Origin: Treponema sp.
Lineage (GTDB): Bacteria > Spirochaetota > Spirochaetia > Treponematales > Breznakiellaceae
Reading direction: 5' to 3'
Assembly: GCA_031279635.1 (NCBI GenBank)
Contig: JAITIC010000012.1
Coordinates: 1 to 37,995, forward strand
DNA length: 37,995 nucleotides
The position numbers and the translations under genes were made by a program. Below, piece by piece: positions 5,403-35,917 of the stretch (the stretch's first letter is position 1; each line of letters starts with the position of its first letter). The notes under the pieces were generated by a model, which ran no database searches, was not told the origin of the DNA, and saw nothing but the letters and a program-made list of their open reading frames with translations.

Positions 5403-5456
5403 ATGAAACCTCATCTGCCTGACGAATGGAAGAATCTCCAGGCCGCGTTGAATTAG
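5403..5456 (+). pseudogene. 17-codon gene stub cut off at a repeat element
   Basis: GGAGG and a well-spaced ATG (5403) start a reading frame 17 bases after the ATPase stop, as for a fourth operon gene. It encodes only MKPHLPDEWKNLQAALN and stops at a TAG that is itself part of the repeat edge (GAATTAGTG). After the repeat no rightward continuation is found; a leftward pseudogene follows instead. The simplest reading is a gene truncated when the repeat arrived or by a later deletion. I do not recognise the 17 residues. A real short peptide cannot be excluded. Confidence 0.45.
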
Positions 5457-5591
5457 TGTCTGTCCATAATGTAGACACATTATGGACAGACTACCTTAAA
5501 ACAGGCATTTTGCGCACCGTTTTGGTACAAAACGGGAGCAAATGCAAGGTCTGTCCGCAAAGTAACCGACTTTGTGGACAGACACGAATTA
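5451..5591 (+). repeat. About 140-bp palindromic element, family 1, copy A
   Basis: The element has three hairpins. Hairpin 1 is perfect: GTCTGTCCATAATGT (5458-5472), AGAC loop, ACATTATGGACAGAC (5477-5491). The middle hairpin is CCGTTTTG-GTA-CAAAACGG (5517-5535). Hairpin 3 is GTCTGTCCGCAAAGT (5549-5563), AACCG loop, ACTTTGTGGACAGAC (5569-5583) with one mismatch. The ends are inverted copies of AATT(A/C)GTGTCTGTCC. A second copy in opposite orientation lies at 35785-35917. The size, terminal inverted repeats and absence of coding capacity fit a MITE. Left and right flanks share GAATTA, which could be a target duplication or part of the ends. Confidence 0.85.
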
Positions 5592-5604
5592 ACCAATACC
5601 CCGA

Positions 5605-5982
5605 TTATTTCCGCTTTGAGGTTCGCCCAAAATGTACCGGAAATCCCACACTTGTTCCCGCGGCCGAAAGAATATTTGAAAATGCCCTCTGTTCGCTGCC
5701 AGGCTTATGTACCGCCGTTATTGCTATGATGATTTTTCCCGGCACAGACAAAATCAGGACGGTATGCCTGTTTGAGCGGCTTGCCGTCATATAGGGAGCG
5801 CTTGTTCCGCTTCATAGGAACTTCGGTCTTTTGCATCTCAATTTCCAGGCATTTATGCGGACTTCCCGCTATACAGCCTCCGGGAAACCCGCGCCTGGTT
5901 TCCTGTTTACTTCGTAAAGACACCCGCGGATACGAAAACTTTCGTTTTCATACCGTAGTTTTCCTTTTTTAACTTTCTGCAT
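5605..5982 (-). pseudogene. GxxExxY-family protein, frameshifted remnant
   Basis: Three leftward fragments in different frames together match the layout of the GxxExxY family (a PDDEXK_3-like group). From ATG 5982: KLRYENESFRIRGCLYEVNRK...GAGFPEAV, then a stop; next CLEIEMQKTEVP...YDGKPLKQAYRPDFVCAGK; then a shift to GKIIIAITAVHKPGSEQRAF...GTSVGFPVHFG, ending at 5605. The family normally reads G-x-x-x-E-V-x-x-x-x-G-x-G-F-x-E-x-V-Y, a middle YxADFV segment, and a closing VGLLxNFG segment of roughly 120 residues. At least two frameshifts and one stop show it is dead. It sits between two repeat elements. The family assignment rests on recalled consensus. Confidence 0.65.
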
Positions 5983-5989
5983 ACTTATA

Positions 5990-6048
5990 GAGGCTGTTTC
6001 AAAACCCTGCGCGTTTAACGTACAGTCAATTAGTTTTGAAACAGGCTC
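5990..6048. repeat. Palindromic element, family 3, copy a
   Basis: Ends GAGGCTGTTTCAAAAC (5990-6005) and GTTTTGAAACAGGCTC (6033-6048) are inverted repeats with one mismatch. The inner segment contains CGTACAGTCAATTAGTTTT (6019-6037), also found in the copy at 32402-32472. The element lies just before the start of the GxxExxY remnant. Confidence 0.75.
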
Positions 6049-6180
6049 ATATATACCGGTTTTGTCCGTGATGGCCTGGGTTGAATTCGGAATCCCTGGG
6101 GTTTCATTCTTTCCCCTTGCGCGAGCGCGTAAAAAATGTGAAAATAAACATAGAGTTTATAAGCCTGAATCAAAGCATGG

Positions 6181-6239
6181 AGTTTTGGGGATCCTGGACA
6201 ACGCGCTGATTAGAAACAATACCGCCCTGCCCCAAAACT
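6181..6239. repeat. Inverted repeat of the CAAAACT/AGTTTTG group
   Basis: AGTTTTGGGG (6181-6190) and CCCCAAAACT (6230-6239) are perfect inverted repeats 39 bases apart. They end 38 bases before the GTG start of the next ABC transporter, so they lie in its leader region. The remainder of 6049-6180 shows nothing I can support as a gene. Confidence 0.5.
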
Positions 6240-6276
6240 TCGGGCGTTGCGTGAAGTGCAGCGCAAAGGGGCTACT

Positions 6277-7791
6277 GTGTTAGCGATTGAAATGCTGGAA
6301 ATCACCAAGGTTTTTCCCGGTGTGCTGGCAAACGACCGGGTTAATCTGCGGGTTGAGCGGGGGGAGATACACGCCCTCCTGGGGGAGAACGGGGCCGGTA
6401 AATCGACCCTTATGTCGATCCTGTTCGGGCTGTACGAGCCTGACGGCGGCCTTATCAGGATATGGGGCGAAGAGGTGAAAATCCGCAGCCCCAACGACGC
6501 CACGGCCCTGCGGATCGGCATGGTGCATCAGCACTTCAAACTTGTGCACAACTTCACCGTTACCGAAAATATTGTGCTGGGCCTGGAACCACATAACGCT
6601 TTTGGAAACCTGGACCTTCGCGGCGCGGAAAAGCGGGTGGCGGAACTTTCCGGGACCTACGGCCTGGCCGTAGACCCCCGTGCCAGGATCGAAAATATCA
6701 CCGTGGGCATGCAGCAGCGGGTGGAAATCCTCAAAATACTCTACCGCGACGCGGACATCCTTATTTTTGACGAGCCGACCGCGGTGCTGACCCCCCAGGA
6801 AATCGATGAGCTTTTGGCGATTTTCCGCCGCCTCAAGTCGGAAGGAAAAACGATTCTGTTTATCACCCATAAGTTAAAAGAGATAAAGGCCGCCGCGGAC
6901 CGCTGCACGGTGCTGCGCAGGGGAAAATATATCGATACTGTTGACGTATGCAGGGCGAGCGAGGCGGAACTGGCCGAAAAAATGGTGGGGCGGGCGGTAA
7001 CGTTCCGTATTGAGAAGAAACAGGCCCGGCCCGGCGGCGTAGTGCTTAAAATCGAAGACATGACGGTAATCGGCGCAAAGGGAACCCCCGCGGTGAGCGG
7101 CCTTTCCCTGGATGTACGCGCGGGTGAAGTGGTTGGCATTGCCGGGGTTGACGGCAACGGCCAGTCGGAACTGGTGGCGGCCATCGCGGGGCTTTTGCCG
7201 GTCAAGTCCGGCAGGGTGCTCCTCAAAGGAAGCGACCTCTCCAAAGAGAGCATCAGGAGCCGCAACGAGCGGGGGCTGGGGCTGGTGCCCGAAGACCGGC
7301 ACAGGCACGGCCTGGTCCTCGAATTCAGAGTTGACGAAAACCTCATTCTCAAGAGCTTCCGCCGCCGGCCTTATTCAAACCGCGCGGGTTTTCTGCGTTT
7401 TCCGGCTATTTTCGGGCACGCCGAGACCCTTATCAGCGATTTTGACATTCGGGCGGGGAACGGGCCGGCCACGCCCGCCAAGTCCATGTCCGGGGGCAAT
7501 CAGCAGAAGGTGGTTATCGCCCGCGAAATCGACCTTTCCCCTGAGCTGCTTATCGTGTCGCAGCCGACCAGGGGACTTGACGTGGGCGCTATCGAGTATA
7601 TTCACCGCCGCATTGTGGAGGAACGGGACAAGGGACGGGCGGTGCTGTTGGTGTCCTTTGAACTGGATGAGATTCTGGGCCTCTGCGACCGTATCGCGGC
7701 CCTTTCCAAGGGCCAGGTGGTGGGAGTTCTTCCGGTGGAAGAGGCTGACGAGCGGCGAATCGGCGCGATGATGGGGGGAGTTCATGCCTGA
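6277..7791 (+). CDS. Nucleoside/riboflavin-type ABC transporter ATPase (double ATP-binding domain)
   Basis: A 504-residue ATPase with two nucleotide-binding domains in tandem, like RbsA/YufO-type proteins. Domain 1 has Walker A GENGAGKST, signature VGMQQRVEILK and Walker B ILIFDEPTAVLTP. Domain 2 has a degenerate Walker A (GVDGNGQSE), signature MSGGNQQKVVIARE and LLIVSQPTRGLDVG. This asymmetry is normal for the family. I chose GTG 6277 because AGGGG lies five bases upstream; an in-frame TTG at 6247 has no such site. The next two genes are its permeases. In Treponema pallidum related transporters serve purine nucleosides (PnrA system) or riboflavin (Rfu system); the window lacks the binding lipoprotein that would decide. 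Confidence 0.85.
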   Translation: MLAIEMLEITKVFPGVLANDRVNLRVERGEIHALLGENGAGKSTLMSILFGLYEPDGGLIRIWGEEVKIRSPNDATALRIGMVHQHFKLVHNFTVTENIVLGLEPHNAFGNLDLRGAEKRVAELSGTYGLAVDPRARIENITVGMQQRVEILKILYRDADILIFDEPTAVLTPQEIDELLAIFRRLKSEGKTILFITHKLKEIKAAADRCTVLRRGKYIDTVDVCRASEAELAEKMVGRAVTFRIEKKQARPGGVVLKIEDMTVIGAKGTPAVSGLSLDVRAGEVVGIAGVDGNGQSELVAAIAGLLPVKSGRVLLKGSDLSKESIRSRNERGLGLVPEDRHRHGLVLEFRVDENLILKSFRRRPYSNRAGFLRFPAIFGHAETLISDFDIRAGNGPATPAKSMSGGNQQKVVIAREIDLSPELLIVSQPTRGLDVGAIEYIHRRIVEERDKGRAVLLVSFELDEILGLCDRIAALSKGQVVGVLPVEEADERRIGAMMGGVHA

Positions 7792-8983
7792 CATACGCAA
7801 AAAAAGCAGGGGGAATCCCGGCGGCTTCAACCTGGGCGACCGCCTTCTTGAGGTGTTCACCGGCTCGGACGCTCTGGTTTCGGCGGCGGTAGTGGTATTG
7901 GGCTTTTTAGTCGCCACGCTGCTCATCATTGTCATCGGGCGGAATCCCGGCGGCATGTACCAGGCGATCCTGCAGGTGGTGACCGGTTTTGATCTTCGCC
8001 GCGGAACCCATAACATGCGCTATGTGGGGGAATGGCTGGTCAGTTCCATTCCGCTTATCCTCTGCGGTTTTTCCATGGCCTTTGCCGCCCGGACCGGGCT
8101 GTTCAACATCGGGGCGGAGGGGCAGTACATCGCAGGCATCACCGCGGCCCAGCTCATCGCCCTCTATTTTCCGCCGGTACCGGTACTGCACTGGATCGCG
8201 GCGGTCCTGGGGGCGATCATTGCCGGCGCGGTCTGGGGCGGCATTGTCGGGTTCTTCAAGGCCCGCTACAAGGTTTCCGAAGTGGTGGCCACGATCATGA
8301 TGAACTACATCGCCTTTTATCTGCACCGCCTTATTCTGCTGCGGATTCCGGGCAGCAATACTTTCAGAACGCCGGACTTTCCCGCCACGGCAACGCTCTC
8401 AAGCCCCCTTTTGTCGGCGCTTACCAACGGGTCCCGGCTCAATTACAGCCTCTATCTTACCCTGGCGGCGATTGTCATCTTTTGGATCATCATGGGGAAA
8501 ACGCGCCTGGGCTATTCCCTGCGGGCTACGGGGCTTAACAAGGACGCCGCCTTTTACGGCGGCATCAGTGTAAACGCCAGCGTTACCGCCGCCATGGCGA
8601 TAGCCGGGGCCTTCGCGGGCCTTGCCGGCGCGTCGGTTTCCCTGGGCGTCTTTTCCTACGGCCGCATCCTCGCCGCCCAGGACGGTTACGGCTTTGACGG
8701 TATTGCCGTGGCCCTGGTGGGTAACAGCACCGCCTGGGGAACCGCCCTGGCGGGCCTCCTCTTCGGCATGCTCAAATCCGCGCAGCCCCTGATGCAGTCC
8801 CGGCAGATACCCAAGGAGATTACCGCGATCATCATGGGCCTGGTGGTAGTTTTTATTTCACTGCGCGCGGGAGTGCGGATCATCATCGAATGGCAGATGA
8901 AGGAAAAGGCCCGCCGCGTACAGGAACATGCAGCGGCCGGGACTGCGGCCGCGGACGGGAACGAAAAAGGGGGGAACGAATAA
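7784..8983 (+). CDS. Nucleoside/riboflavin-type ABC transporter permease 1 (COG4603 type)
   Basis: A 399-residue membrane protein whose start overlaps the ATPase stop by eight bases, showing translational coupling. About ten hydrophobic segments are visible. Diagnostic stretches of this permease family are FSMAFAARTGLFNIGAEGQYIAG, KVSEVVATIMMNYIAFYL, GYSLRATGLNKDAAFYGGI and DGYGFDGIAVALVGNSTAWG. The last 25 residues are a charged cytoplasmic tail (KEKARRVQEHAAAG...). It forms half of the channel with the product of the next gene. Riboflavin and nucleoside importers both use this type, so substrate is open. Confidence 0.87.
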   Translation: MPDIRKKSRGNPGGFNLGDRLLEVFTGSDALVSAAVVVLGFLVATLLIIVIGRNPGGMYQAILQVVTGFDLRRGTHNMRYVGEWLVSSIPLILCGFSMAFAARTGLFNIGAEGQYIAGITAAQLIALYFPPVPVLHWIAAVLGAIIAGAVWGGIVGFFKARYKVSEVVATIMMNYIAFYLHRLILLRIPGSNTFRTPDFPATATLSSPLLSALTNGSRLNYSLYLTLAAIVIFWIIMGKTRLGYSLRATGLNKDAAFYGGISVNASVTAAMAIAGAFAGLAGASVSLGVFSYGRILAAQDGYGFDGIAVALVGNSTAWGTALAGLLFGMLKSAQPLMQSRQIPKEITAIIMGLVVVFISLRAGVRIIIEWQMKEKARRVQEHAAAGTAAADGNEKGGNE

Positions 8984-9894
8984 TGGCTTTCTTTCAGATA
9001 ATATGGAACATGCTTCCTTCAACCTTTATGATAGTTTCCCCCATTCTTATCGCCGCTGTCGGCGGCATGATCTGCGAGCGTTCCGGCGTGGTGAACATCG
9101 CCCTGGAAGGGCTGATGGCCATCGGCGCCATGACCGCCGCGGTAACCCATGTGCTTCTGGAAACGAAGATCGGCTTTTCGATTCCCCTGGCCCTGGGCCT
9201 TGCCGCCCTCGCCGGCTGCCTGTTTTCACTGGTCCATGCTTTCGCCGCGATTACCCTGCGGGCGGATCAGGTGATATCCGGCACGGGGATCAACCTCCTC
9301 GCCAACGGGCTTACCCTGTTCGTGTGCCAACTGTTGTTCCGCATGGATCGCAGTCAGAACTACCGCATGGGGATGAAGTCGGGCCTCTTCGGTATTTACC
9401 CCACAGTCTGGATAGCCCTCGCCATTCTGGCGGCAAGCTGGTTTATGCTGTACAAGCGCCCCTGGGGGCTGCGCCTCAGGGCCGCAGGCGAACACCCCCA
9501 GGCCCTGGCCTCCGCCGGGGTCAACGTCATCAGGATCCGCTATATCGCGGTACTCATTTCCGGCCTCCTCGCCGGCCTTGCCGGGGGCTGCATCGTCCTC
9601 ACCCAGGACATTCAGTACACGGTAAGCACCATTAACGGCAAAGGCTTTATCGCCCTGGCCGCGGTTTCCTTCGGCCGCTGGCTGCCCCTGGGGATACTCG
9701 GCTCCAGTTTTCTCTTCGGCATGTCCTCCGCGCTGGCGGTGAACATCATCAACATCAAGGGCCTCCAGTTTCTGCCTTCGGAATTCTTCAACGCCCTTCC
9801 GTACCTCATCACCCTCATCACCCTGGTACTGTTCAGCGGAAAGGACTACGCCCCCAGAGCGTCCGGGCAGCCCTACGACAAAGGGAAGAGTTAG
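8983..9894 (+). CDS. Nucleoside/riboflavin-type ABC transporter permease 2 (COG1079 type)
   Basis: A 303-residue membrane protein. The ATG at 8983 overlaps the TAA of the previous gene (TAATG) and is preceded by a G-rich ribosome binding site; a longer frame opening at 8890 has no signal and would run inside the first permease. Family stretches include GGMICERSGVVNIALEGLM, ADQVISGTGINLLANGLTLF, RLRAAGEHPQALASAGVNV and SGLLAGLAGGCIVL. Loss or absence of the binding-protein gene in this operon suggests the receptor is encoded elsewhere or was lost in the decayed stretch upstream (5391-6276). Confidence 0.87.
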   Translation: MAFFQIIWNMLPSTFMIVSPILIAAVGGMICERSGVVNIALEGLMAIGAMTAAVTHVLLETKIGFSIPLALGLAALAGCLFSLVHAFAAITLRADQVISGTGINLLANGLTLFVCQLLFRMDRSQNYRMGMKSGLFGIYPTVWIALAILAASWFMLYKRPWGLRLRAAGEHPQALASAGVNVIRIRYIAVLISGLLAGLAGGCIVLTQDIQYTVSTINGKGFIALAAVSFGRWLPLGILGSSFLFGMSSALAVNIINIKGLQFLPSEFFNALPYLITLITLVLFSGKDYAPRASGQPYDKGKS

Positions 9895-9916
9895 TGGTAT
9901 TGGTTAAAACAGCGAT

Positions 9917-10735
9917 ATGATTTGGTTTAGTAATCAGCATGTGGTAATACAGGCTTTAGTGGCCTGTCTTTTTACGTGGGGACTTACCGCCCTGGGATCG
10001 GGGACGGTGTTTTTCTTCAAAACCATCAACCGCGGGGTGCTTGACGGCATGCTCGGCTTTGCCGCCGGCGTGATGATTGCGGCCAGTTTCTGGTCCCTGT
10101 TAAGCCCGGCGATTGCCCTGGCTGAGGCCGCGGAAAGTTCCGGCGTTCCCCGCTGGTTTCCTGCGGCGGCGGGCTTCCTGCTTGGCGGCGGCTTTCTGCG
10201 CCTCGCCGACTGGCTGCTTCCCCATCTGCACATTGAGCATAATACCGATGACGCCGAGGGAATCAAAACTTCATGGAGCCGCTCGGTCCTGTTGGTGCTG
10301 GCCATCACCCTGCACAACATCCCCGAAGGGCTTGCCGTGGGGCTAGGCTTCGGCGCGGCCGCCGCCGGTCTTCCCGGCGCGGGCTTTGCCGCTGCGGCGG
10401 CCCTGGCCCTGGGTATCGGCCTGCAGAATTTCCCCGAAGGCGCGGCGGTTTCCATCCCCCTGCGCAGGGACGGCCTGAGCCGGCTCAGGAGTTTCTGGTA
10501 CGGGCAGCTTTCGGGCCTGGTGGAGCCGGTCGCCGGCGTTGTCGGCGCGGCTTTGGTCTTCTTTGTTCGGCCGGTCATGCCTTACGCGCTGGCCTTTGCC
10601 GCCGGCGCCATGATTTTTGTAGCCGCCGAAGAACTCATTCCCGAAGCCTACGGCGCGGGAAACGACCACATCGCCACCACCGGTCTCATGCTTGGATTCA
10701 CCCTGATGATGGTCCTGGATGTGGGCCTGGGATGA
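9917..10735 (+). CDS. ZIP-family divalent metal transporter
   Basis: A 272-residue inner-membrane protein of the ZIP (ZupT/GufA) family, which carries Zn2+ and related ions into the cytoplasm. The two signature metal-binding helices are complete: [14 protein letters not shown] and [13 protein letters not shown], followed by [12 protein letters not shown] with its conserved Glu. A histidine-bearing stretch [11 protein letters not shown] (about residues 100-110) lies in the loop before the fourth helix, as expected. Eight hydrophobic segments fit the family, and the length is normal. It begins 22 bases after the second permease and may share its transcript. The ribosome binding site is weak. 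A perfect terminator lies 104 bases beyond the stop. Confidence 0.9.
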
Positions 10736-10838
10736 CTGCGCCGGCAGCATGGCGGCTTGTGGATTTTTTGTAATCTTTCAGGAAAAACGCAAAAAAATCT
10801 TCAATTAGGCGGCTTGTTGCTAAAGCAGCTTGCAGGAT

Positions 10839-10862
10839 AAAAATCGCCTGAAGGCGATTTTT
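10839..10862 (+). terminator. Rho-independent terminator after the ABC/ZIP operon
   Basis: AAAAATCGCC (10839-10848), TGAA loop, GGCGATTTTT (10853-10862): a perfect ten-base stem with a tetraloop and a T-run on the rightward strand. The A-run on the other side would also allow it to work leftward. It separates the ZIP gene from the translation operon. Confidence 0.85.
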
Positions 10863-10870
10863 GGGGATTA

Positions 10871-11005
10871 ATGCGCGAAACGCATCAAACTGCCGGGGAA
10901 ACGCTCCGGGCGATAGTGAGAGATGAGCGGGACTATGAGGTGAGGACAGTGGACAAATTTTTATATGCGCCGGCCCTGAAATTCCCCGGATACTCTCTTG
11001 ACTAA
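10871..11005 (+). CDS. Possible 44-residue small protein (uncertain)
   Basis: An ATG at 10871 four bases after GGGG opens a 44-codon frame: MRETHQTAGETLRAIVRDER, then a basic/aromatic tail ending FPGYSLD. It begins just after the terminator and ends inside the -35 box of the next operon. The charged helix-like first half resembles antitoxin or remnant C-terminal pieces, but no family is recognised. It may be a chance frame. Confidence 0.22.
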   Translation: MRETHQTAGETLRAIVRDERDYEVRTVDKFLYAPALKFPGYSLD

Positions 11006-11026
11006 ATTCCCCTTTTTTACTATTGT
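10998..11026 (+). promoter_or_regulatory. Promoter of the tRNA-Thr/rpmG/secE/nusG/ribosomal operon
   Basis: TTGACT (10998-11003), 17-base spacer, TATTGT (11021-11026). The predicted start of transcription is near 11033, 18 bases before tRNA-Thr. The spacing is optimal and no other strong promoter is seen before secE, so this probably serves the whole block. The rplM promoter at 37831-37859 also has TTGACT with a C-rich spacer. Confidence 0.65.
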
Positions 11027-11050
11027 GGAAGAGCTTGTAAAATGGCGAGG

Positions 11051-11123
11051 GCCCTTGTAGCTCAGTTGGCAGAGCATATCCATGGTAAGGATAAGGTCAA
11101 CAGTTCGATTCTGTTCGAGGGCT
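11051..11123 (+). tRNA. tRNA-Thr (anticodon GGT)
   Basis: A 73-base cloverleaf: acceptor GCCCTTG/CGAGGGC with one wobble, D-arm GCTC/GAGC, anticodon stem TATCC/GGATA around loop ATGGTAA (anticodon GGT), T-arm AACAG-TTCGATT-CTGTT and discriminator T. CCA is not encoded. It is the first product of the operon. Confidence 0.95.
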
Positions 11124-11234
11124 GGTTGAAATACTTGCATTTCAATCAATTTTGGAGATGCGTTTTTCAATTTGGGAGTTCTCGCGGGTGAAAACTCCGG
11201 AAACAGAGTGAATTTTGGATTAAAAGAGGTAAAT

Positions 11235-11408
11235 ATGGCGAGTAAAAAGACAGTGGTGGAACTCGTAGCCCTGCAATGTACCGAATGTAAGCGGAAAAAC
11301 TATACCACAAAAAAAAACCGGCGAAATACTCAGGAAAAACTCGAATTCAACAAGTATTGCCCTTTTGACCGGAAACACACGCTTCACAAGGAAACCAAAG
11401 TTAAGTAA
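11235..11408 (+). CDS. rpmG: Large ribosomal subunit protein bL33
   Basis: A 57-residue ribosomal protein of the 50S subunit. ATG 11235 is chosen because the protein then begins [15 protein letters not shown] and GAGG lies upstream; a longer frame from 11172 has an unrelated N-terminus. The first zinc-ligand pair CTEC is intact, but in the second pair (usually CPxC) the last Cys is replaced: CPFD. Zinc binding is therefore probably weak or absent. The coding sequence also contains a run of nine A. Flanked by tRNA-Thr and tRNA-Trp, as in other treponemes. Confidence 0.95.
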
Positions 11409-11413
11409 ATTTT

Positions 11414-11486
11414 AGGCCAGTAGCTCTAATGGTAGAGCGCCGGTCTCCAAAACCGGATGTTGTGGGTTCGAGTCCTACCTGGCCTG
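11414..11486 (+). tRNA. tRNA-Trp (anticodon CCA)
   Basis: A 73-base cloverleaf starting five bases after the rpmG stop: acceptor AGGCCAG/CTGGCCT, D-arm GCTC/GAGC, anticodon stem CCGGT/ACCGG around CTCCAAA (anticodon CCA), T-arm TGTGG-GTTCGAG-TCCTA region, discriminator G, no encoded CCA. It must be cut out of the rpmG-secE transcript. Confidence 0.96.
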
Positions 11487-11569
11487 GGCAAAAAAGCTCC
11501 TACAGGCGAAAAAAGGGCCGGTTAAGGTGAGTCCTGCCGGGGTAGATATTTGTAGACAAGAGGAAGGGC

Positions 11570-11749
11570 ATGAACAAACTAGTTCAATTTGTGAAAGAAT
11601 CCTACGCCGAACTCCGGAAGGTGATTTGGCCGGGCAGGGACGATGTGGTCAGCTCGGTGAAGGTGGTGATTATTTCTACCGTTATGGTGGCGGCGGTTTT
11701 GGGCCTGATAGACGTGTTGCTGCTCTTCGGCATAAGGCTTGCCTTTTAA
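11570..11749 (+). CDS. secE: Protein translocase subunit SecE
   Basis: A 59-residue membrane protein of the SecYEG channel. It begins MNKLVQFVKESYAELRKVIW and has the family's amphipathic helix with the conserved ELRKVxWP motif, followed by one membrane helix (VVIISTVMVAAVLGLIDVLL). Single-helix short SecE is normal outside enteric bacteria. AGGAAGG lies directly before the ATG. Position between tRNA-Trp and nusG confirms it. Confidence 0.95.
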   Translation: MNKLVQFVKESYAELRKVIWPGRDDVVSSVKVVIISTVMVAAVLGLIDVLLLFGIRLAF

Positions 11750-11801
11750 TGAACATCGCTAAAGAGCGGGGCTTGGGGCTCCGCCGCGGATAGAGGAATA
11801 A

Positions 11802-12365
11802 ATGGCTACAGGCTGGTATGTCCTCCATATCTTTTCGGGGTATGAGAACAAAATAGAAAAAACTATCCGTATGATGATCGAAAACGGGGATCTGAACAGA
11901 GAAGTTGTCCGCGACGTAAAAGTCCCCTCGGAGGAAGTGGTCGAGGTCAAAGACGGCAAAAAACGCACCTTGACCAGGAAGTTCCTCCCCGGTTATATCC
12001 TCGTGGAAATGGACCTTCCCGATACGGATAAGGACTGGAAAGTTCCCTGTTCCAAGATCAAAAAGATCAACGGCGTTACCGGTTTTGTGGGAACTCCGGC
12101 GGATCGCAAGCCCCAGCCCCTGAGCGGCGACGAGGCGCGTTCTATTTTGCAGAAGTCCGGCGAGATCAAAGGCGAGCGGACGGTCCGTACCCGACAGGCC
12201 TTCTCCTCCGGCGAGCATGTCAAGATTATCGACGGGCCGTTTGAATCTTTCACCGGGACCATCGAAGAGGTGTACCCGGAAAAGAACAAATTGAAAGTGA
12301 TGGTCGGCATTTTCGGTAGAAATACGCCGGTAGAAGTTGACCTTTTGCAGGTGGAAAAACTGTAA
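11802..12365 (+). CDS. nusG: Transcription termination/antitermination factor NusG
   Basis: A 187-residue factor that binds RNA polymerase and links it to the ribosome or Rho. The N-terminal NGN domain is clear (WYVLHIFSGYENKIEKTI ... RKFLPGYILVEMDL), and the C-terminal KOW domain follows (GEHVKIIDGPFESFTGTIEE ... VEVDLLQVEKL). The length is typical of compact NusG without an inserted domain. GAGG lies eight bases before the ATG. It is the classical partner of secE. Confidence 0.96.
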   Translation: MATGWYVLHIFSGYENKIEKTIRMMIENGDLNREVVRDVKVPSEEVVEVKDGKKRTLTRKFLPGYILVEMDLPDTDKDWKVPCSKIKKINGVTGFVGTPADRKPQPLSGDEARSILQKSGEIKGERTVRTRQAFSSGEHVKIIDGPFESFTGTIEEVYPEKNKLKVMVGIFGRNTPVEVDLLQVEKL

Positions 12366-12389
12366 AATAAAGCAGTGGGAGAGGTGTCG

Positions 12390-12413
12390 GGCTAAAGTCT
12401 GACGGATTTAGCC
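12390..12413 (+). other. Leader hairpin before rplK
   Basis: GGCTAAA (12390-12396) pairs with TTTAGCC (12407-12413) across ten bases in the 97-base gap between nusG and rplK. A structured leader here could be a binding site for ribosomal protein L1, which represses the L11-L1 genes in many bacteria. The placement fits; the L1 site itself was not recognised. Confidence 0.3.
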
Positions 12414-12462
12414 TGAAGCCTCGTCAGTCGGTTGCCGCCGGCATACCACGGAGGAGTATTGA

Positions 12463-13571: not shown

Positions 13572-13574
13572 AGT

Positions 13575-14630: not shown

Positions 14631-14664
14631 ACGAACGGTGAATACAGTTTCTTTTCTCGCACAG

Positions 14665-14702: not shown

Positions 14703-14822
14703 GAGCCGCTTTCAAAACCCGGTTGGTTTTGGTGCGGCTCTGTGGTTTTTCAGGCTAACGCCTTACAAAACCACGATTTTAACAGGCTGCTCTTTTAAAA
14801 CTGAATTTTTGAAAGAGCCTCC
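14703..14822. repeat. Cluster of palindromes with GAGCCTC end, rplL-rpoB gap
   Basis: Three stems follow one another: GAGCCGC (14703-14709) with GCGGCTC (14734-14740); GTGGTTTT (14742-14749) with AAAACCAC (14767-14774); and an imperfect stem from GGCTGCTCTTTTAAAA (14785-14800) to TTTTTGAAAGAGCC (14806-14819). The last arm ends GAAAGAGCCTCC, also found at 29425-29434 as GAAAGAGCCTC, and GAGCCTCC recurs at 24751 and 25673. The cluster ends 37 bases before rpoB. Confidence 0.6.
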
Positions 14823-26881: not shown

Positions 26882-26894
26882 TTCCGCGCCCGCT

Positions 26895-29120: not shown

Positions 29121-29311
29121 CCTTTTCCCTCTTTTTGGAACAGCAATTCGTCCAATTCCCGCTCCAGTCCGGCCAGGTATTCTTCCATTTCGTGAATCTT
29201 CTGTATGGAATAGCGGGCCTGCCGGTCCATAAGCCGCTCGCAGGCCCGGTCCACCACGGAGATGAAAGAATCCGTTTCGGAAATCACTGCGGGTTTTTCG
29301 CCGGTTGTCAT
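29117..29311 (-). CDS. Small coiled-coil protein of unknown function, possibly from a leaderless mRNA
   Basis: A 64-residue protein starting MTTGEKPAVISETDSFISVV. The second half is charged and heptad-like (IHEMEEYLAGLERELDELLF), predicting a coiled coil. No family is recognised. I prefer ATG 29311 because a good promoter (29318-29346) predicts transcription starting at or within a base or two of this ATG, leaving no room for a ribosome binding site; a longer frame from 29398 would place the promoter inside the coding region. It overlaps the propeller/NodB gene by four bases, so the two are translated together and may form a complex or work in the same envelope process. Confidence 0.55.
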   Translation of the reverse strand: MTTGEKPAVISETDSFISVVDRACERLMDRQARYSIQKIHEMEEYLAGLERELDELLFQKEGKG

Positions 29312-29317
29312 GCTACT

Positions 29318-29346
29318 ATTGTAGTATATTTCGGAAATTGAAGCAA
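29318..29346 (-). promoter_or_regulatory. Promoter of the coiled-coil/propeller-NodB/methyltransferase operon
   Basis: On the minus strand TTGCTT (29346-29341), 17 bases, TACAAT (29323-29318). The expected start is seven bases on, at about 29311, the A of the ATG. The stretch 29347-29518 between the two divergent operons holds only a partial repeat end (GAAAGAGCCTC at 29425-29435) and no gene I can support. Confidence 0.55.
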
Positions 29347-29518
29347 TTTCATAATTACGCAATGAGTAGAAGGGCGGAAACAGGTATTCCGAATACAACC
29401 ATAGACCATCCGCGGAGGATCATTTGAAAGAGCCTCATATAAAACGTTTTTACTCAAAACAACCTGAAAAAACGCCGATTATATAAGGGCGACTCTGAAA
29501 TGCCGCAGGGTTTGTATG

Positions 29519-29547
29519 TTGTACGCCAACCGGTGTTTTCATATAAT
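29519..29547 (+). promoter_or_regulatory. Promoter of the fliL-fliM-fliY operon
   Basis: TTGTAC (29519-29524), 17 bases, TATAAT (29542-29547). It predicts a leader of only about 17 bases that still contains the ribosome binding site GGGGAGGA (29556-29563). The perfect -10 and spacing suggest the housekeeping sigma factor. Confidence 0.6.
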
Positions 29548-29570
29548 TTGAATTAGGGGAGGATTTGGGC

Positions 29571-30137
29571 ATGTCTGACAGCGAAGAACTGGATCTCGAC
29601 GGCGGTGAGGCGACTGAAGCGGGCGCCCTCCCTCCGAAAAAAGGCGGTCTGGGGGGCATATTACCGGCCATTCTCAAATTTGTCGCCATCGGGCTTGGGG
29701 CGCTCATTTTCATCATTACGGTAGCGGTTATAACGTTTAATATTATGAACAAGGGGGGGAAGGTACAGACGGTCACGGCGGACCCCACCTCGCCCTATGT
29801 GGGAAAGCGCCCCGTATACGCCTATTACACGAACATAGGCTCAATAACGGTCAATACCAGGGATACGACCGGGGCGCGGTACTCGGTGACGGTGGTGATG
29901 AACATCGGCTATGATCCTGAGGATCAGGCGGCCTCTGCGGAACTGAGCAACCGTCAGGTTGAGCTGCGGGATTTTGTGCGGACTTATTTTCAGGGGAAGT
30001 ACGCCGCGGATCTGAGTCCCGAAAAAGACGCGCAGATCAGGCGGGAAATCCAGACAATACTGAACGACCGTTTTCTTGATACCGCCAAGGTGCGGAGCAT
30101 TATGTTTGACAAGTTCGATGTGATGGAGATATATTGA
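29571..30137 (+). CDS. fliL: Flagellar basal body-associated protein FliL
   Basis: A 188-residue single-pass inner-membrane protein that sits around the stator and stabilises torque generation; spirochaete flagella are periplasmic. ATG 29571 is chosen over an in-frame TTG at 29565 because GGGGAGGA is correctly spaced. The acidic cytoplasmic N-terminus (MSDSEELDLDGGEATEAG) is followed by a membrane helix at about 30-58 (AILKFVAIGLGALIFIITVA) and a periplasmic domain with the conserved NI...T(D)xxxRYSVTVVM and C-terminal VRSIMFDKFDVMEIY. FliM and FliY follow. In Treponema pallidum motB precedes fliL; here it does not. Confidence 0.88.
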   Translation: MSDSEELDLDGGEATEAGALPPKKGGLGGILPAILKFVAIGLGALIFIITVAVITFNIMNKGGKVQTVTADPTSPYVGKRPVYAYYTNIGSITVNTRDTTGARYSVTVVMNIGYDPEDQAASAELSNRQVELRDFVRTYFQGKYAADLSPEKDAQIRREIQTILNDRFLDTAKVRSIMFDKFDVMEIY

Positions 30138-30192
30138 GCGGCTTTTTAACGGTGGTAGTTGCCAACCATCGGAAAAGCGGGTAGGATAAGGC

Positions 30193-31224
30193 ATGACAGA
30201 AGTTCTGTCCCAGGATGAAATAGATCAACTGCTTACCGCGATAAACGCCGGGGATACCGAGCCTGAGGATTTCAGGCCCGCGGCGGACAGCCGGAAGATC
30301 AAGATCTATGACTTCAAACGGCCCGACAAATTCTCCAAGGAACAGATACGTACGGTCTCGATCATGCACGAGACCTTTGCCCGTTTGACCACGACGAGCC
30401 TTTCCGCCCAACTGCGGAGCATGGTGCAGGTGCACGTGGCCTCGGTAGACCAGCTCACTTACGAGGAATTTATCCGCTCCATACCGACCCCGACGACCCT
30501 GGCGATCATCAACATGGACCCGCTCAAGGGAAACGCCATCCTGGAAATCGATCCGGCAATCACTTTTTCGATCATCGAACGGCTTTTCGGCGGCCTCGGT
30601 GAAGGCTCCAAGTACCAGCACGAACTCACCGACATCGAACAGTCCGTTATGGAAGGGATCATCGTCCGTATTCTGGGAAATATGCGGGAAGCCTGGACCA
30701 CGGTGATTGACCTCCGTCCCCGCCTGGGGCAGATAGACACGAATCCCCAGTTTGCCCAGATTGTGCCCCCTACCGAAATGGTGATTCTCGTGACCCTGGA
30801 AACCAAGGTGGGCGAGGTCGAGGGCATGATGAATTTCTGTATTCCCTATCTGACGATTGAGCCTATCATCGGGAAACTGTCGGCCCAGTTCTGGTATTCG
30901 TCGGTACGGCGGAACGCCACCTCCGAGAACCTCAATGTGCTAAAGGAGAAGCTCTCAACTGTCGATGTTAATGTTGTAGCCGAAATCGGAAAGATCAATA
31001 TTCCGGTTCGGGATGTGCTTTATCTACAGATGGGGGATGTGGTGCGGCTTTACAATACCCGCGTGGGCGATCCGTATTCCCTTAACATAGGCAGCAAAAA
31101 AAAGTTTCTGTGCCGCCCCGGCGTAATCGGGAAAAAACTGGCGGTGCAGATAATCAAAAAAGTCGCGGAGCTTGAACATAACGAATTCGAAGAGCTCGCT
31201 TCTGAAGGAGAAGAACTGCTATGA
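30193..31224 (+). CDS. fliM: Flagellar motor switch protein FliM
   Basis: A 343-residue C-ring protein that receives the phosphorylated CheY signal. The CheY-binding N-terminal peptide LSQDEIDQLL (about residues 5-14) is intact. The middle domain follows, with the FliG-contact motif ERLFGGLGEGSK, and then the C-terminal SpoA domain (VDVNVVAEIGKINIPVRDVL ... LCRPGVIGKKLAVQI). The length is standard. Its stop overlaps the start of fliY (ATGA), consistent with co-assembly. Confidence 0.97.
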   Translation: MTEVLSQDEIDQLLTAINAGDTEPEDFRPAADSRKIKIYDFKRPDKFSKEQIRTVSIMHETFARLTTTSLSAQLRSMVQVHVASVDQLTYEEFIRSIPTPTTLAIINMDPLKGNAILEIDPAITFSIIERLFGGLGEGSKYQHELTDIEQSVMEGIIVRILGNMREAWTTVIDLRPRLGQIDTNPQFAQIVPPTEMVILVTLETKVGEVEGMMNFCIPYLTIEPIIGKLSAQFWYSSVRRNATSENLNVLKEKLSTVDVNVVAEIGKINIPVRDVLYLQMGDVVRLYNTRVGDPYSLNIGSKKKFLCRPGVIGKKLAVQIIKKVAELEHNEFEELASEGEELL

Positions 31225-32303
31225 TGAGTGACGGCGCTCTGTCGCAGGATGAAATAGACGCTTTACTGGCAGGTGTAGACTCGTCCAGCATTATGGGGGC
31301 GGCCGCGGCCGTGGCGTCGGGTGGCTCGGACGCCGACCGGCAGGCTTTGCAGCATTTCCTTTCCGCAAACGTGGACGCACTTTCCTCAAACCTTTCCATG
31401 ATGACCGGTGCAACCGTAAGCCTCAGAGGGCCGCAGGTCAGTTTTTCAGGCAGGGACAATTTTCTCACCCAGCTTCCCGACACGGTAACGATCGTCAAAG
31501 CGGATTTTACCTCCGGTTTTCCCGGCGAGCATGTTTTTATTATTTCCGAAGACTGCGCCAAGGCCATTGCCAGCGTGATGAACAAAGAAGAAAACATCCA
31601 GCTTGACGAAATGGCCATGTCGGTTATCGGCGAAGTGGTGTCCCAGATGGTGGGAACGCAGATAACCGCTTTGAGCGACAAGACCGGCAACAAGTCAATC
31701 GCTTCCGGTTCTCCTGAAGCGGTCAATGTGCCCAAGGCCGTCGCGGCTCTGCCCGCCGGTGATTTCGCGTACGCGGCCTATCAGCTTGATCTGGGGACCG
31801 GAACCACCTACGAGCTATGGGAAGTGCTTGGGCCGACGATTGCCGCGGACATTGCGCGGGCTTTATCGGGCGGCGGCGCTCAGGCCGCTCCCGCCGGAAT
31901 GGGTGCTCTGCCCAACATGGGGATGAGTGGAATGCAGATGCCTAATATGAGTAACATGGGAATGGGAGTGAACATGGGACCGGCCAGCGTGCAGTCGGTG
32001 CAGTTCCCCAACCTGATGCCCCCGCGGCTTGGCCCCCAGGAAGCGGGCAATATCGGCCTCATTATGGACGTGTACATGGAGATGACCGTCGAATTGGGGC
32101 GTACCAGAAAACCGATTAAAGAAATACTCAACATGGGCGAAGGGACGATTATCGAACTGGACAAACTTGCCGGCGAGCCGGTTGATATTCTCGTGAACCA
32201 CAAACTGATAGCCAAAGGCGAGGTTGTGGTAATTGACGAAAACTTCGGCGTCCGCGTCACCGAGATCGTGTCTCCCATGGAACGCATGAACGACATGGGT
32301 TAA
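31221..32303 (+). CDS. fliY: Flagellar motor switch protein FliY (CheC-like plus FliN domains)
   Basis: A 360-residue C-ring protein. It opens with a second CheY-binding peptide, LSQDEIDALLAG, nearly the same as in FliM. Residues about 30-220 form a CheC-like domain; the helix ENIQLDEMAMSVIGEVVSQ has Ser where the CheC phosphatase consensus E-x-x-N needs Asn, so CheY-P phosphatase activity is in doubt at this half. A methionine/asparagine/glycine-rich linker (about 230-265: ALPNMGMSGMQMPNM and on) leads to the FliN/SpoA domain (MTVELGRTRKPIKEILNMGE ... VVVIDENFGVRVTEI). Alternative start ATG 31224 differs by one residue. No further flagellar gene follows. Confidence 0.93.
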   Translation: MMSDGALSQDEIDALLAGVDSSSIMGAAAAVASGGSDADRQALQHFLSANVDALSSNLSMMTGATVSLRGPQVSFSGRDNFLTQLPDTVTIVKADFTSGFPGEHVFIISEDCAKAIASVMNKEENIQLDEMAMSVIGEVVSQMVGTQITALSDKTGNKSIASGSPEAVNVPKAVAALPAGDFAYAAYQLDLGTGTTYELWEVLGPTIAADIARALSGGGAQAAPAGMGALPNMGMSGMQMPNMSNMGMGVNMGPASVQSVQFPNLMPPRLGPQEAGNIGLIMDVYMEMTVELGRTRKPIKEILNMGEGTIIELDKLAGEPVDILVNHKLIAKGEVVVIDENFGVRVTEIVSPMERMNDMG

Positions 32304-32320
32304 AGTTATAGAAGAATGAG

Positions 32321-32350
32321 GCTTTCCCAAAACTTCAGTTTTGGGAAAGC
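32321..32350. repeat. Perfect 14-bp palindrome after fliY
   Basis: GCTTTCCCAAAACT (32321-32334), TC, AGTTTTGGGAAAGC (32337-32350). It lies 18 bases after the fliY stop and shares the CAAAACT core with 4209-4232 and 6181-6239. No T-run follows, though such a stem could slow the polymerase or protect the 3' end. Confidence 0.7.
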
Positions 32351-32380
32351 AGCCTTGAAATTCGCGGTTTTGCAAGGCTG
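32350..32380. repeat. Second stem adjoining the post-fliY palindrome
   Basis: CAGCCTTG (32350-32357) pairs perfectly with CAAGGCTG (32373-32380) across 15 bases. It joins the previous palindrome without a gap, so the pair may be one element. Confidence 0.5.
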
Positions 32381-32401
32381 AAAGCCTGAAAAACTGCATG
32401 G

Positions 32402-32472
32402 GCCCGTCCCAAAACCGTGCCCCCGGCTATGCCGGGAACGTGAGCGTACAGTCAATTAGTTTTGGGACAGGC
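32402..32472. repeat. Palindromic element, family 3, copy b
   Basis: Ends GCCCGTCCCAAAAC (32402-32415) and GTTTTGGGACAGGC (32459-32472) are inverted repeats with one mismatch. Inside is CCCGGC-TAT-GCCGGG (32422-32436), absent from copy a. The right inner part GCGTACAGTCAATTAGTTTT matches copy a at 6018-6037 except one base. From 32473 to 32717 I see only a T/C-rich stretch and a weak GGGGCTTTTT hairpin near 32640-32665, and no gene. Confidence 0.75.
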
Positions 32473-32717
32473 AATTTAACCACGGATTCATTCATAATTC
32501 CTTCTCGTTCTCTCATTCATTTACTTTCTCTATTTCTTTTTAAGTTGAGCGCATTCCCGAACGGGGGGAGGGCGGTCAATAGGGCGCGCGGGGTTTTTAC
32601 GGACAGACCATAATCCCACCTTCCCCAAAGCAAGGCCCGGTATCAATATCCCCTGGGGCTTTTTGTGTGATACAGCTTCCGTTATTCGATCAGCTAATCC
32701 CTTATCCTGTAAGCAAT

Positions 32718-32799
32718 TGCGGCCTAGAAGACTTGAACTTCCATGCCTCTCGGCACCAGCACCTCAAGCTGGCGTGTCTACCAGTTCCACCAAGGCCGC
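32718..32799 (-). tRNA. tRNA-Leu (anticodon GAG)
   Basis: An 82-base leftward tRNA with a long variable arm. Acceptor GCGGCCT/AGGCCGC, anticodon stem CCAGC/GCTGG around TTGAGGT (anticodon GAG), T-arm GGAAG-TTCAAGT-CTTCT, discriminator A. CCA is not encoded. It decodes CUU and CUC. Confidence 0.95.
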
Positions 32800-32811
32800 A
32801 AATATATGAAA

Positions 32812-32841
32812 GTTATAATACGATTCGGCAAATAATGTCAA
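32812..32841 (-). promoter_or_regulatory. Promoter of tRNA-Leu
   Basis: TTGACA (32841-32836, minus strand) and TATAAC (32817-32812) separated by 18 bases. Transcription would start about six bases before the tRNA. The -35 is a perfect consensus. The stretch 32842-32974 before the ankyrin gene shows no clear rightward promoter. Confidence 0.6.
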
Positions 32842-32974
32842 GGTTCCGGACACAATTCTCCAGGAATTCTCATTTTAACCATGAACCACACCAACGATGC
32901 GAACAGAAGGGAGCAAAAAGAATTACCCTGCACTGAGCCTTCAAAATCGCGGGAAATTTGTCGATATTTATGGT

Positions 32975-35782
32975 ATGAAGTCTACAGTTCTTTTCCGAGC
33001 GTTTATCGCAGGTTTTGGCGTGTTTATTCTGGCTGTAACGGGCTGCCGCAGCGCCCCCGCCCCCACTTCCACGAAGCCGGTTGAAGCCCCCCGTGAAGAT
33101 GTATGGTCTCTGCTGGCCAAAGGCGACAGCCGGGCCAGGGATTATTTCTTGGGGGAGGTGGATGTACACGAGCGGGATTCCCTGGGCAGGACGCCGCTTC
33201 ACTACGCCGCTGAAATGGGCGACTCAACCCTGGCGGCCTTCTTTATCTCCCTTGGCGCCGATGTAGACGCCCAGGACAATGAGGACCAGACGCCGCTGGG
33301 AATCAGCGCGGAAAAAAACGATCCCGAAATGGCCAGGCTGCTTGTCTCGGCCGGGGCGTATATTCATTTGCCTTTCAAGAACGGGCCAAGCCCGGCCATA
33401 GTTGCCGTCGAGGGCGACGGGACTTTTTTACAGGCCATTCTGACTCCCACCACGGTTAGGTCCGCCGACCCCGAAGGAAGGACCGTCCTCCACCTGGCAA
33501 GCATTGCCGGCAATGTCGCGGCGGTAAATGATATTCTCGCGATTGCGGACAGTTCGGAAAATATTCCGGCGAAAAAAGACATAGACGGAAACAACGCCCT
33601 CGATCTGGCCCTTCTCAGGCCGGATTCACGGGACCATATGGAAATCGCCGAGCGGCTTATCCTTGCCGGTGCGGTTTCGGAAAATCCCATATTCTCCTAT
33701 TTCGCCCCCGCGGCCCGAAGCGCCAACTACAACGCCCGCCGCAGCGACGGGCTTGCCCCCCTGCATTACGCCGCGCGGGAAGGGTATGAGGGCCTTATCG
33801 CGTTCCTGATTGAAAAAAGGGCCGATGTAAATATCAAGAACACCGCCGGGGCCACGCCCCTGCATGAGGCGGCCCGTTCCGGTAACACATGGATCATGCA
33901 GGTGCTGCTGGACCAGGGCGCCGAGGTAAACACCCAGGACGCCAAGGGGAACACGCCCATGCACATCGGTATTCCCGCCGAGCAGCATGTACAGGCCCTG
34001 GGCCTGTTCCTTGACTACGGGGCCAATCCCAATCTGCGGGACGAGCACGGCGAAACCCCCCTGCACATTATCATCACCCTGAACCGCAGCCCCTATGTGG
34101 CGCAAACCCTTCTGGGCAGCGGGTCTGATGTCACCATCAGAAATATCGACGGGAAGACGCCCCTCTACCTGGCCGTGGAGGAAAACCGCGTCGAACTCAT
34201 CCCCCTGTTGCTGGCCTACGGCTCGGATGTGTTCGCGGCGGACAATTCGGGCGTTACCCCCTTTGACCAGGCTATGAAGGATAACGGCTTCGCCCTGGAC
34301 GAACTCATCACCACCGAAACGATACACCAGAGCGACAACGCGGGAAATACCATGCTCCACGCCGCAGTCAAAAACCAGGGCGATCCGTCCGTCATTTCGC
34401 TCATCCTGGATCAGCGGGCATTGGTCAACGCCCGCAACAAAGAGGGAGAGACCGCCCTGCATATCGCGGTGCGGACCAACCAGCAGGGAAGCGGGGAATT
34501 CCTCATTTCGCGGGGCGCGGATATCTTCGCCGCCAACTCGGCGGGGGAAAGCCCCCTGTACCTCGCCCTGGTTTCCCCGGGCGGGAGGCGGCAGTGGATG
34601 TTCAACCCCCGGACGATCATCGCCAGGGATGGGCTGGGAAACAGCATGCTCCATTACGCGGCCCAGTGGAAACTGGACCAGCACATCCCCTTTATCATCC
34701 AGCAGGGCGTGCCGGTGGAAACGGCCAACGCCACCGGAGAAACGCCCCTCTTTATGGCGGTCAAGAACGACGGCCCCACCACAGTAAGAACCCTGCTCGC
34801 CGCCAAGGCCAATCTCCACACGCGGGACACCTTCGGCAATTCGGCGCTCCACGCCGCGATACGCTGGAACGCGAAAAATTCGGCCCTTACCCTGATTGAA
34901 TCGGGCATAGACATCAACGCCCACAACCTCAGCGGTAACACCCCCCTCCACGACTCGATACGCCTGGGCATCACCGATATTGAGACGCTCCTTATAAACC
35001 GGGGGGCGGACCCGGAAGTCCGCAACGCCGATGGTAACACCCCCTTCATGGAAGCGGTCATGGCCGGCTATACCGGATCAATGGAACGCCTGACCGCGCG
35101 GGGCGCGGACCCCATGACCAGAAATGTGCGGGGCGACACGCCCCTTCATGTGGCGGTTGCCATGGAACGCATTGATATTGTGAACGTCCTTTTGCGGATG
35201 GGCGTCTCAATCCACGCCCGCAACACCCGTGACCAGACGCCGTTCCTTATTGCTTTGGCCATTTCGCCCCGCATGGTATCCACCCTGCTCACCAAGGACC
35301 GCATAAACGGCAGCGACGACTTCGGTAACTCTGCCCTGCACATCGCCCTGCGGGCAAAAGCCCCGGCCTCAACGGTCAAAGTGATCCTCGACCAGGGGGC
35401 GCGCCAGACCGCGGTGGATTCCAACGGCCGTACTCCTCTGCGTCTTGCCGCGGACCTCGGCGCCTGGGAAACGGCCAAACTCCTTGCCGATTCTGGTTCT
35501 GATCCCTTTTCCACGGCCGGCGACGGCAGAACCCCCGCCGACGTTGTCCTTGCCAAAGGCCAGGTGGGAATATACGCGCTCTTTTCAGGCAAGGCGATAA
35601 ACGCCAGGGACGCTTCCGGTAATACCGTTCTCCATTACGCCGCGCGCCTCGGCAACACCGAGAGCATCCTGCTGCTTCTGGAATTAGGCGCCAACAAGAA
35701 CCTGAAAAACATTGCGGCCGAAAGCCCCGCGGATATCGCCATGCGCTGGAATCACATGGAGAATATGGTACTGCTGAATTAG
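32975..35782 (+). CDS. Lipoprotein with about 26 ankyrin repeats
   Basis: A 935-residue exported protein. ATG 32975 gives a lipoprotein signal (MKSTVLFRAFIAGFGVFILAVTGC, acylated Cys about residue 24); the frame itself opens earlier, at 32897, but without a signal. There is no good ribosome binding site. After a short Pro/Ala linker almost the whole protein is ankyrin repeats of about 33 residues with the (G)xTPLHxAA core (GRTPLHYAAEMGD, GATPLHEAARSGN, GNTVLHYAARLGN and others); I count 26. It is expected to be anchored in the membrane facing the periplasm, binding other proteins. Repeat 24-26 helices continue to the last residues (MENMVLLN), three bases before a repeat element, so the natural C-terminal cap may be shortened. 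Confidence 0.85.
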   Translation: MKSTVLFRAFIAGFGVFILAVTGCRSAPAPTSTKPVEAPREDVWSLLAKGDSRARDYFLGEVDVHERDSLGRTPLHYAAEMGDSTLAAFFISLGADVDAQDNEDQTPLGISAEKNDPEMARLLVSAGAYIHLPFKNGPSPAIVAVEGDGTFLQAILTPTTVRSADPEGRTVLHLASIAGNVAAVNDILAIADSSENIPAKKDIDGNNALDLALLRPDSRDHMEIAERLILAGAVSENPIFSYFAPAARSANYNARRSDGLAPLHYAAREGYEGLIAFLIEKRADVNIKNTAGATPLHEAARSGNTWIMQVLLDQGAEVNTQDAKGNTPMHIGIPAEQHVQALGLFLDYGANPNLRDEHGETPLHIIITLNRSPYVAQTLLGSGSDVTIRNIDGKTPLYLAVEENRVELIPLLLAYGSDVFAADNSGVTPFDQAMKDNGFALDELITTETIHQSDNAGNTMLHAAVKNQGDPSVISLILDQRALVNARNKEGETALHIAVRTNQQGSGEFLISRGADIFAANSAGESPLYLALVSPGGRRQWMFNPRTIIARDGLGNSMLHYAAQWKLDQHIPFIIQQGVPVETANATGETPLFMAVKNDGPTTVRTLLAAKANLHTRDTFGNSALHAAIRWNAKNSALTLIESGIDINAHNLSGNTPLHDSIRLGITDIETLLINRGADPEVRNADGNTPFMEAVMAGYTGSMERLTARGADPMTRNVRGDTPLHVAVAMERIDIVNVLLRMGVSIHARNTRDQTPFLIALAISPRMVSTLLTKDRINGSDDFGNSALHIALRAKAPASTVKVILDQGARQTAVDSNGRTPLRLAADLGAWETAKLLADSGSDPFSTAGDGRTPADVVLAKGQVGIYALFSGKAINARDASGNTVLHYAARLGNTESILLLLELGANKNLKNIAAESPADIAMRWNHMENMVLLN

Positions 35783-35784
35783 TT

Positions 35785-35917
35785 TAATTAGTGTCTGTCT
35801 ATAAAGTCGGTTACTTTGCGGACAGACATTGCATTTTTTCGCCTAACGGCTGTGAAAATGCGTTTTTTAAGGAAGTCTGTCCATAATGTGTCTACATTAT
35901 GGACAGACTCTAATTAG
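35785..35917 (-). repeat. About 140-bp palindromic element, family 1, copy B (inverted relative to copy A)
   Basis: Read on the minus strand it parallels copy A at 5451-5591: perfect hairpin GTCTGTCCATAATGT/ACATTATGGACAGAC (35875-35908), a middle stem GCATTTT/AAAATGC (35831-35837 and 35854-35860) whose inside differs from copy A, and hairpin GTCTGTCTATAAAGT/ACTTTGCGGACAGAC (35793-35827) with two wobble pairs and one mismatch. Flanks carry TAATTAG on both sides. The right flank supplies the stop codon of acyP. Confidence 0.85.

Follow-up and report, generated by a model that had tools for sequence, protein, structure and literature searches.

A three-hairpin repeat of Treponema, probably a mobile element from a superfamily that keeps one fold with different ends

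A repeat of 120-130 bp that can fold into three hairpins is present in two inverted copies in a contig of Treponema sp. (JAITIC010000012.1, assembly GCA_031279635.1), of which we analysed positions 1 to 37,995, referred to as the window. We find that this repeat is very probably a non-autonomous DNA transposon, a miniature inverted-repeat transposable element (MITE) of about 120-130 bp, and that it probably belongs to a superfamily whose members would keep one fold while working with different DDE transposases. MITEs as a kind are known and are usually viewed as what deletion has left of a single insertion sequence (IS); what is unusual here is one covarying three-hairpin layout common to families that differ in their ends and target duplications. 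This raises the testable question of whether a non-coding mobile element can be selected for its fold and change its transposase.

Two inverted copies share their end hairpins

Copy A, of the A type, covers 130 bp on the forward strand (5456-5585), and copy B, of the B type, covers 120 bp on the reverse strand (35791-35910). A first-pass annotation of this DNA had described the two inverted copies and their shared flanking hairpins, and both are recovered here with slightly shifted borders. Copy A is enclosed by the 6-bp target-site duplication (TSD) GAATTA (5450-5455 on the left and 5586-5591 on the right, forward strand), and copy B by TAATTA (left 35911-35916, right 35785-35790, reverse strand). 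The stop codon TAA of an acylphosphatase open reading frame (ORF; 35914-36201, reverse strand) is part of the latter duplication.

In copy A, the left terminal hairpin (H1, 5458-5491, forward) has 15-nt arms that are 100% complementary (GTCTGTCCATAATGT / ACATTATGGACAGAC), the middle hairpin (H2, 5505-5545, forward, placed by model alignment) contains an asymmetric GCA/GA internal loop that was read by eye, and the right terminal hairpin (H3, 5549-5583, forward) carries the apex GTAACCGAC. Copy B has the same end hairpins, with H1 at 35875-35908 and H3, again with the apex GTAACCGAC, at 35793-35827 (both reverse). Its middle hairpin, GCATTTT..AAAATGC with an inner GCC/GGC stem, lies at about 35831-35861 (reverse). 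The middles of the two copies are unlike in sequence and each can fold, as the first-pass annotation had also proposed. The ends of this window family are short inverted repeats (GAGTCTGTCC... / GTGTCTGTCC...), and each has its own reverse complement after it, which gives it the potential to form a hairpin. The mechanically called ORF that spans copy A (5426-5794) has no Pfam match, and the element is too short for a transposase gene. The sequence GTTAGGC in the middle loop of copy B led us to consider an integron attC site, an idea that was rejected because the box is absent from other copies.

Copies are numerous and dispersed

In the 3.1-Mb genome from which the window comes, the right hairpin was found at 112 places and the left hairpin at 109 with at most 3 mismatches, against 0 matches for a reversed-pattern control, and blastn with copy A gave at least 75 matching rows (40 of 186 candidates scored). 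Many of the hairpin matches lie at contig ends, so that a single copy may be counted on more than one contig; we estimate the true number at 80-110 copies. Among 50 left-right pairs in loci of this genome, the hairpin starts were 81 bp apart in 22 (the B type, with 2 pairs touching a contig edge), 91 bp apart in 21 (the A type) and otherwise spaced in 7. Copies A and B therefore represent the two common subfamilies and are not an odd pair.

Beyond this genome, copy A matched 61 of the 146 genomes searched (its own included) and 33/72 genera. At least 92 matching stretches were found in the named collection, and all the matches listed were labelled Treponema sp. or Spirochaetaceae bacterium, apart from one labelled Spirochaetia bacterium. 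From their isolate codes, we presume these to be from termite-gut genomes. No copy was detected in phage and plasmid records at E<=0.01, and three window-family patterns and one sister-family pattern found no match in IMG/VR.

Insertion duplicates six bases at TANNTA

Flanks were compared for 107 distinct full copies (38 from the own genome and 69 from other loci), all with 40 bp or more of sequence on either side. The 6 bp that flank the terminal GA...AC were identical on both sides in 73 of the 107, compared with 15.4 on average and 25 at most when partners were shuffled (2000 shuffles). No copy had identical flanks of 5, 7 or 8 bp (0/107), and identical 4-bp flanks occurred in 6/107. The target read TANNTA on both sides in 77 copies, and in 66 of these 77 the two sides were identical.

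The joined flanks of 106 copies were compared with the sequences at hand to find empty sites. Two of the 21 matches that spanned the junction are orthologous sites; the other 19 appear to be short matches or matches to the query itself or to other copies of the repeat. In the first (genome G083), element L160, with the TSD GATATA, interrupts a gene whose homologue in genome G066 (L295) is an intact 187-aa frame, and the joined flanks with one copy of the TSD align to L295 without a gap at the junction. In the second (genome G014), copy L154 lies between two ORFs that precede rpoB, presumably rplJ and rplL to judge by gene order. These genes are also present in the window, with no element at that position; the genes align, the intergenic stretch aligns poorly. 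These results show that the dispersed copies have inserted, with an exact 6-bp duplication at TANNTA. The repeat is thus not confined to one pair of genomes that lacks empty sites, and the non-autonomous, MITE-like element that the first-pass annotation had suggested is supported by copy number, inverted ends, 6-bp TSDs and empty sites together.

Two kinds of variant were seen among these loci. Solo hairpins with matching 6-bp flanks occur at L174, L175, L182 and L254, the last of which has right-hand-type ends on both sides, an arrangement that a simple internal deletion does not explain. At L197 (220-510) and L204 (1730-2050), in different genomes, a three-hairpin element of a second family is nested at the same point of H1, and each of these composites carries its own outer TSD.

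One covarying fold across families with different ends

In a blastn search of chosen genomes, the matches in four (G071, G077, G107 and G142) were confined to the middle and right portions of the query and lay in elements with other end hairpins. We built a covariance model of H2 and H3 (R1) from 17 diverse sequences of our choosing (alignment A1). At E<=0.01 it matched 43 of 392 genomes from the phylum, and four families of the order account for 40 of the 43. Among 12 genomes of one or two contigs, 11 had matches at E<=0.001, and as many as 21 copies were counted in a single genome; these 12 were picked since earlier searches had hit them, so that the fraction is no prevalence figure. Copy numbers from the model are lower bounds, as 12 candidates per genome were scored in the 392-genome scan and 150 in the 12-genome scan.

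Within the window the model finds four members. Copy A, which is among the 17 sequences from which the model was built, scores 90.1 bits (E 9.9e-18), and copy B 67.1 bits (E 9.5e-13). Element C (14703-14821, reverse; 45.9 bits, E 3.5e-8) has the same fold and belongs to another family, with the ends GAGGCTCTTTC / GAGCCGC; it lies in the intergenic region directly upstream of rpoB (identified by Pfam) and has no clear TSD. Element D (32318-32472, forward) represents a third family and scores 41.7 bits (E 9.2e-7) under default filters, falling to 26.2 bits in an unfiltered scan. Its H3 apex is enlarged or replaced by an insertion of ~43 nt that shares GTACAGTCAATTAGTTTTG with a palindrome at 5990-6048. 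That palindrome, whose ends are similar, scores just 11.9 bits, which indicates that the model does not reward just any hairpin. The window family is one of several that share the fold, two more of which are present in the same window, a point that goes beyond the first-pass annotation. The palindrome itself is a solo hairpin with IS-like ends (GAGGCTGTTTCAAAAC / GAGCCTGTTTCAAAAC) and AT-rich flanks. A further family, with GGGGCTGTCCGAAAAG ends, occurs elsewhere in the own genome (G000:C23, L056, about 108-185, reverse).

The layout that recurs across families consists of H1, a CCTTA-like linker, H2, and H3 with the apex AACC or AACA, while the sequences of the stems vary. In the MAFFT alignment A1, which was not fitted to the model, two-sided changes occurred in 20 of 27 pairs, in 67 cells compared with 18.7 in shuffles, bearing out the earlier proposal that base changes in the stems keep pairing. 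A model-fitted alignment of 38 rows (A2) gave two-sided changes in 27/27 pairs and 275 cells compared with 73.5; A2 is fitted to the model and holds some overlapping rows from opposite strands, making A1 the fairer test. Unpaired features recur as well. The asymmetric 3x2 loop of H2 reads NYA/GA in 14 of the 19 elements to which our script assigned such a loop; the same parse gave a 3x2 or 4x3 loop in 24 of 38 rows and none in 14, and misparsed copy A because of a bulged T. We take this loop to resemble the bulged-G (loop E) module of RNA. A kissing interaction between the apices of H1 and H3, judged by eye, was dropped since it fails for the window family.

Comparison with Rfam, whose families include Termite-flg (RF01729) and Termite-leu (RF01730), returned only three tRNAs in the window at the gathering threshold. 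For six element loci at E<=1, there were 6 weak matches and none reached its gathering score; the sole overlap with an element was that of L154 with L20_leader (29.9 bits, gathering 58.7).

Element ends match transposable elements in sister families

Two ISs of genome G066 connect the superfamily to DDE transposases. The first is 1246 bp long, is present in three copies (L383, L388, L393) with the TSDs TAAA, ATAT and ATAT, and encodes a 346-aa transposase of the IS5 family (NF033581, 293 bits, cut-off 140). Its termini are unequal (GGGAACCTCTAAAAAC / GGGCATCTCTAAAAAC), and both are identical, at 16/16 positions each, to the outer H1 and H3 arms of a sister element in genome G088 (L333). The second (L410; 1217 bp, 4-bp TSD TCTA) is IS1182/IS5-like with scores below the cut-offs, and one of its ends matches the H3 outer arm of L465 (genome G071) at 15/17 positions and that of L288 (genome G142) at 14/17. 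The family of L288, with 15 elements in G142 and G097, has a 4-bp TSD in 9/15. L465, from a single-contig genome, resembles L458 and L471 in H1 and H2 and has a different H3, as expected if element ends are exchanged. In another single-contig genome, L455 (G459) has a chimeric H1, with one arm of the GGGAACCTC family and the other of the GGACAG family.

The first-pass annotation had suggested a search for a transposase with matching ends, and for the window family none was found in the genomes and loci scanned. Pairs of ends 0.2-4.5 kb apart with equal 6-bp flanks were sought in 282 loci and numbered three (L197, L204 and L171). The pairs at L197 and L204 were rejected as an autonomous element, both being nested elements. 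PF01609 transposases in 26 genomes (11 + 15), at the loci checked for terminal repeats, belonged to ISs with other ends; the search of 15 genomes gave 44 transposase places in 13 of them, 30 with loci, and one of the transposase-locus searches used the L383 protein as its only query. Since contigs of the own genome break off in the repeat and binning usually leaves out short ones, a multi-copy IS could be missing from the assembly, and the absence of a transposase is weak evidence.

A proposed model for the superfamily, and points against it

Combining these results, we propose as most likely that a DDE transposase supplied in trans would recognise the outer arms of H1 and H3, mobilise the element and insert it at a TANNTA site cut with a 6-bp stagger. 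The autonomous partner of the window family would end in GAGTCTGTCCATAATG / GTGTCTGTCCACAAAG and make 6-bp TANNTA duplications. The lineage would repeatedly have swapped the arms recognised by the transposase while retaining its fold, which suggests that the fold (three hairpins, NYA/GA loop and AACC/AACA apex) may be selected beyond transposase recognition alone. To account for the retention of the inner arms and H2, we favour selection on a fold, whether of RNA or of single-stranded DNA. A stronger form, which we offer tentatively and consider possible, is that the three-hairpin fold is the selected unit and that its outer arms, and with them both sides of each terminal stem, are remodelled to fit the terminal repeats of any DDE transposase that happens to be present. 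Several transposases with different target duplications would then have spread one fold across an order of spirochaetes, the fold perhaps acting, as RNA or folded single-stranded DNA, in the element's own transposition.

Several observations weigh against a transposon that keeps its fold and is served by different transposases. In 34 of the 107 copies the 6-bp flanks are not identical, and L465 has no duplicated flanks, so that it may have arisen by recombination without moving. No transposase with the ends of the window family was found among the end sites of 16 genomes and 20 scanned stretches. The L171 pair, 2.4 kb apart and considered as an autonomous element, consists of two separate remnants around host-type genes for AzlC, AzlD and an aldo/keto reductase and encloses no transposase. 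At two of the 30 transposase loci, a solo hairpin of the window family (L416, about 540-585) lies ~10 bp from a transposase remnant on contig C140, and a decayed one (L433, about 1287-1331) lies ~170 bp from another remnant; neither arrangement brackets the gene. We know of no IS5 elements that make 6-bp duplications. Furthermore, the matches between IS and element ends lie in sister families and between different genomes, and the interior of the IS lacks the shared middle hairpin, so the elements did not arise from that IS by simple deletion.

Other explanations of the paired arms and the repeat

The main rival to selection on the fold is quasipalindrome correction, in which template switching during replication would keep the arms of an ordinary MITE with foldback ends paired without selection. 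In the window family 98-99% of arm cells are paired (in copies chosen within 4 substitutions of the templates, a choice that favours pairing), and corrected arms would yield two-sided changes of the kind described above. However, a G.T pair persists at position 9 of H3 in 72/107 copies, and the recurrence of the unpaired NYA/GA loop and of the H3 apex while the flanking stems turn over is not predicted by such correction. We therefore disfavour this explanation and regard it as rather unlikely.

Less probable again is a host-useful structured RNA (an element of 3'-untranslated regions, a terminator or a small RNA) that has become repeated and for which mobility is secondary. The strong covariation, the asymmetric loop, the apex recurring in several families and the dominant G.T pair of H3 would all suit such an RNA, as would position: by crude ORF calls, on which all neighbourhood and strand counts rest, the distance from copies to the 3' end of the neighbouring gene has a median of 8 bp (76 ends). 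Of 72 copies with long flanks, 2 lie inside an ORF, 36 between tandem, 20 between convergent and 14 between divergent genes, where the background of adjacent gene pairs is 290 tandem, 78 convergent and 63 divergent. However, closeness to 3' ends would follow from the target, since TANNTA can itself hold a stop codon. Moreover, element strand is evenly split relative to tandem genes (18 same, 18 opposite) and to genes ending within 20 bp (21 and 20), which fits a transposon without a strand-specific role and argues against a strand-specific regulatory RNA, and the TSDs and empty sites demonstrate insertion.

A REP/BIME-like or IS200/IS605-type single-strand element moved by a Y1 (HUH) transposase would account for hairpins at both ends and for the solo hairpins. 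We consider it very unlikely, because the target duplication is exact, at 6 bp here and 4 bp in a sister family, and HUH Y1 elements are not known to make target duplications. The many matches at contig ends would suit a collapsed repeat created by assembly or binning, an explanation that can be dismissed with near certainty, given copies with unique flanks and matched TSDs, their presence in 33/72 genera and the recovery of the fold in 11/12 genomes of one or two contigs (chosen from earlier matches). The repeat marks where contigs of such genomes end, and the covariance model can be used for its annotation.

Relation to known elements

The ERIC, RUP and Correia elements, like the transposon proposed here, are intergenic, palindromic, MITE-like sequences of 100-150 bp. 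They are TA-duplicating single families, whereas here the duplication is 6 bp and a superfamily of several families shows covariation. The IS5-family IS of G066 has termini identical to those of the sister element L333, yet at 1246 bp it is coding and has neither hairpin ends nor H2. MITEs of the IS5 family (review PMC2229807) are similarly short and non-coding, with inverted ends, a target duplication and many dispersed copies, and share their ends with an IS, as a sister family does here. In contrast to them, each end here can form a full hairpin, a third, conserved hairpin lies in the middle, the TSD is a 6-bp TANNTA and the layout is common to families with different ends. REP/BIME sequences with their RAYT transposases (PMC2817692) have hairpins in a paired arrangement and are mostly intergenic; unlike them, the window family has a target-site duplication.

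No description of the element was found among the listed titles and opening abstract lines of open-licence PMC papers or in passages of PMC7160235, PMC8040213 and PMC2864571. The passages of PMC8040213 include HMP2_2105, a candidate RNA of 86 bp that lies upstream of L7/L12 in Treponema; judged from its description, it could be a relative of the element.

A neighbouring gene of the window

The forward-strand ORF at 32897-35782, between element D and copy B, encodes a 961-aa ankyrin-repeat protein, whose matches to NCBIfam ankyrin models fall far short of the cut-offs.

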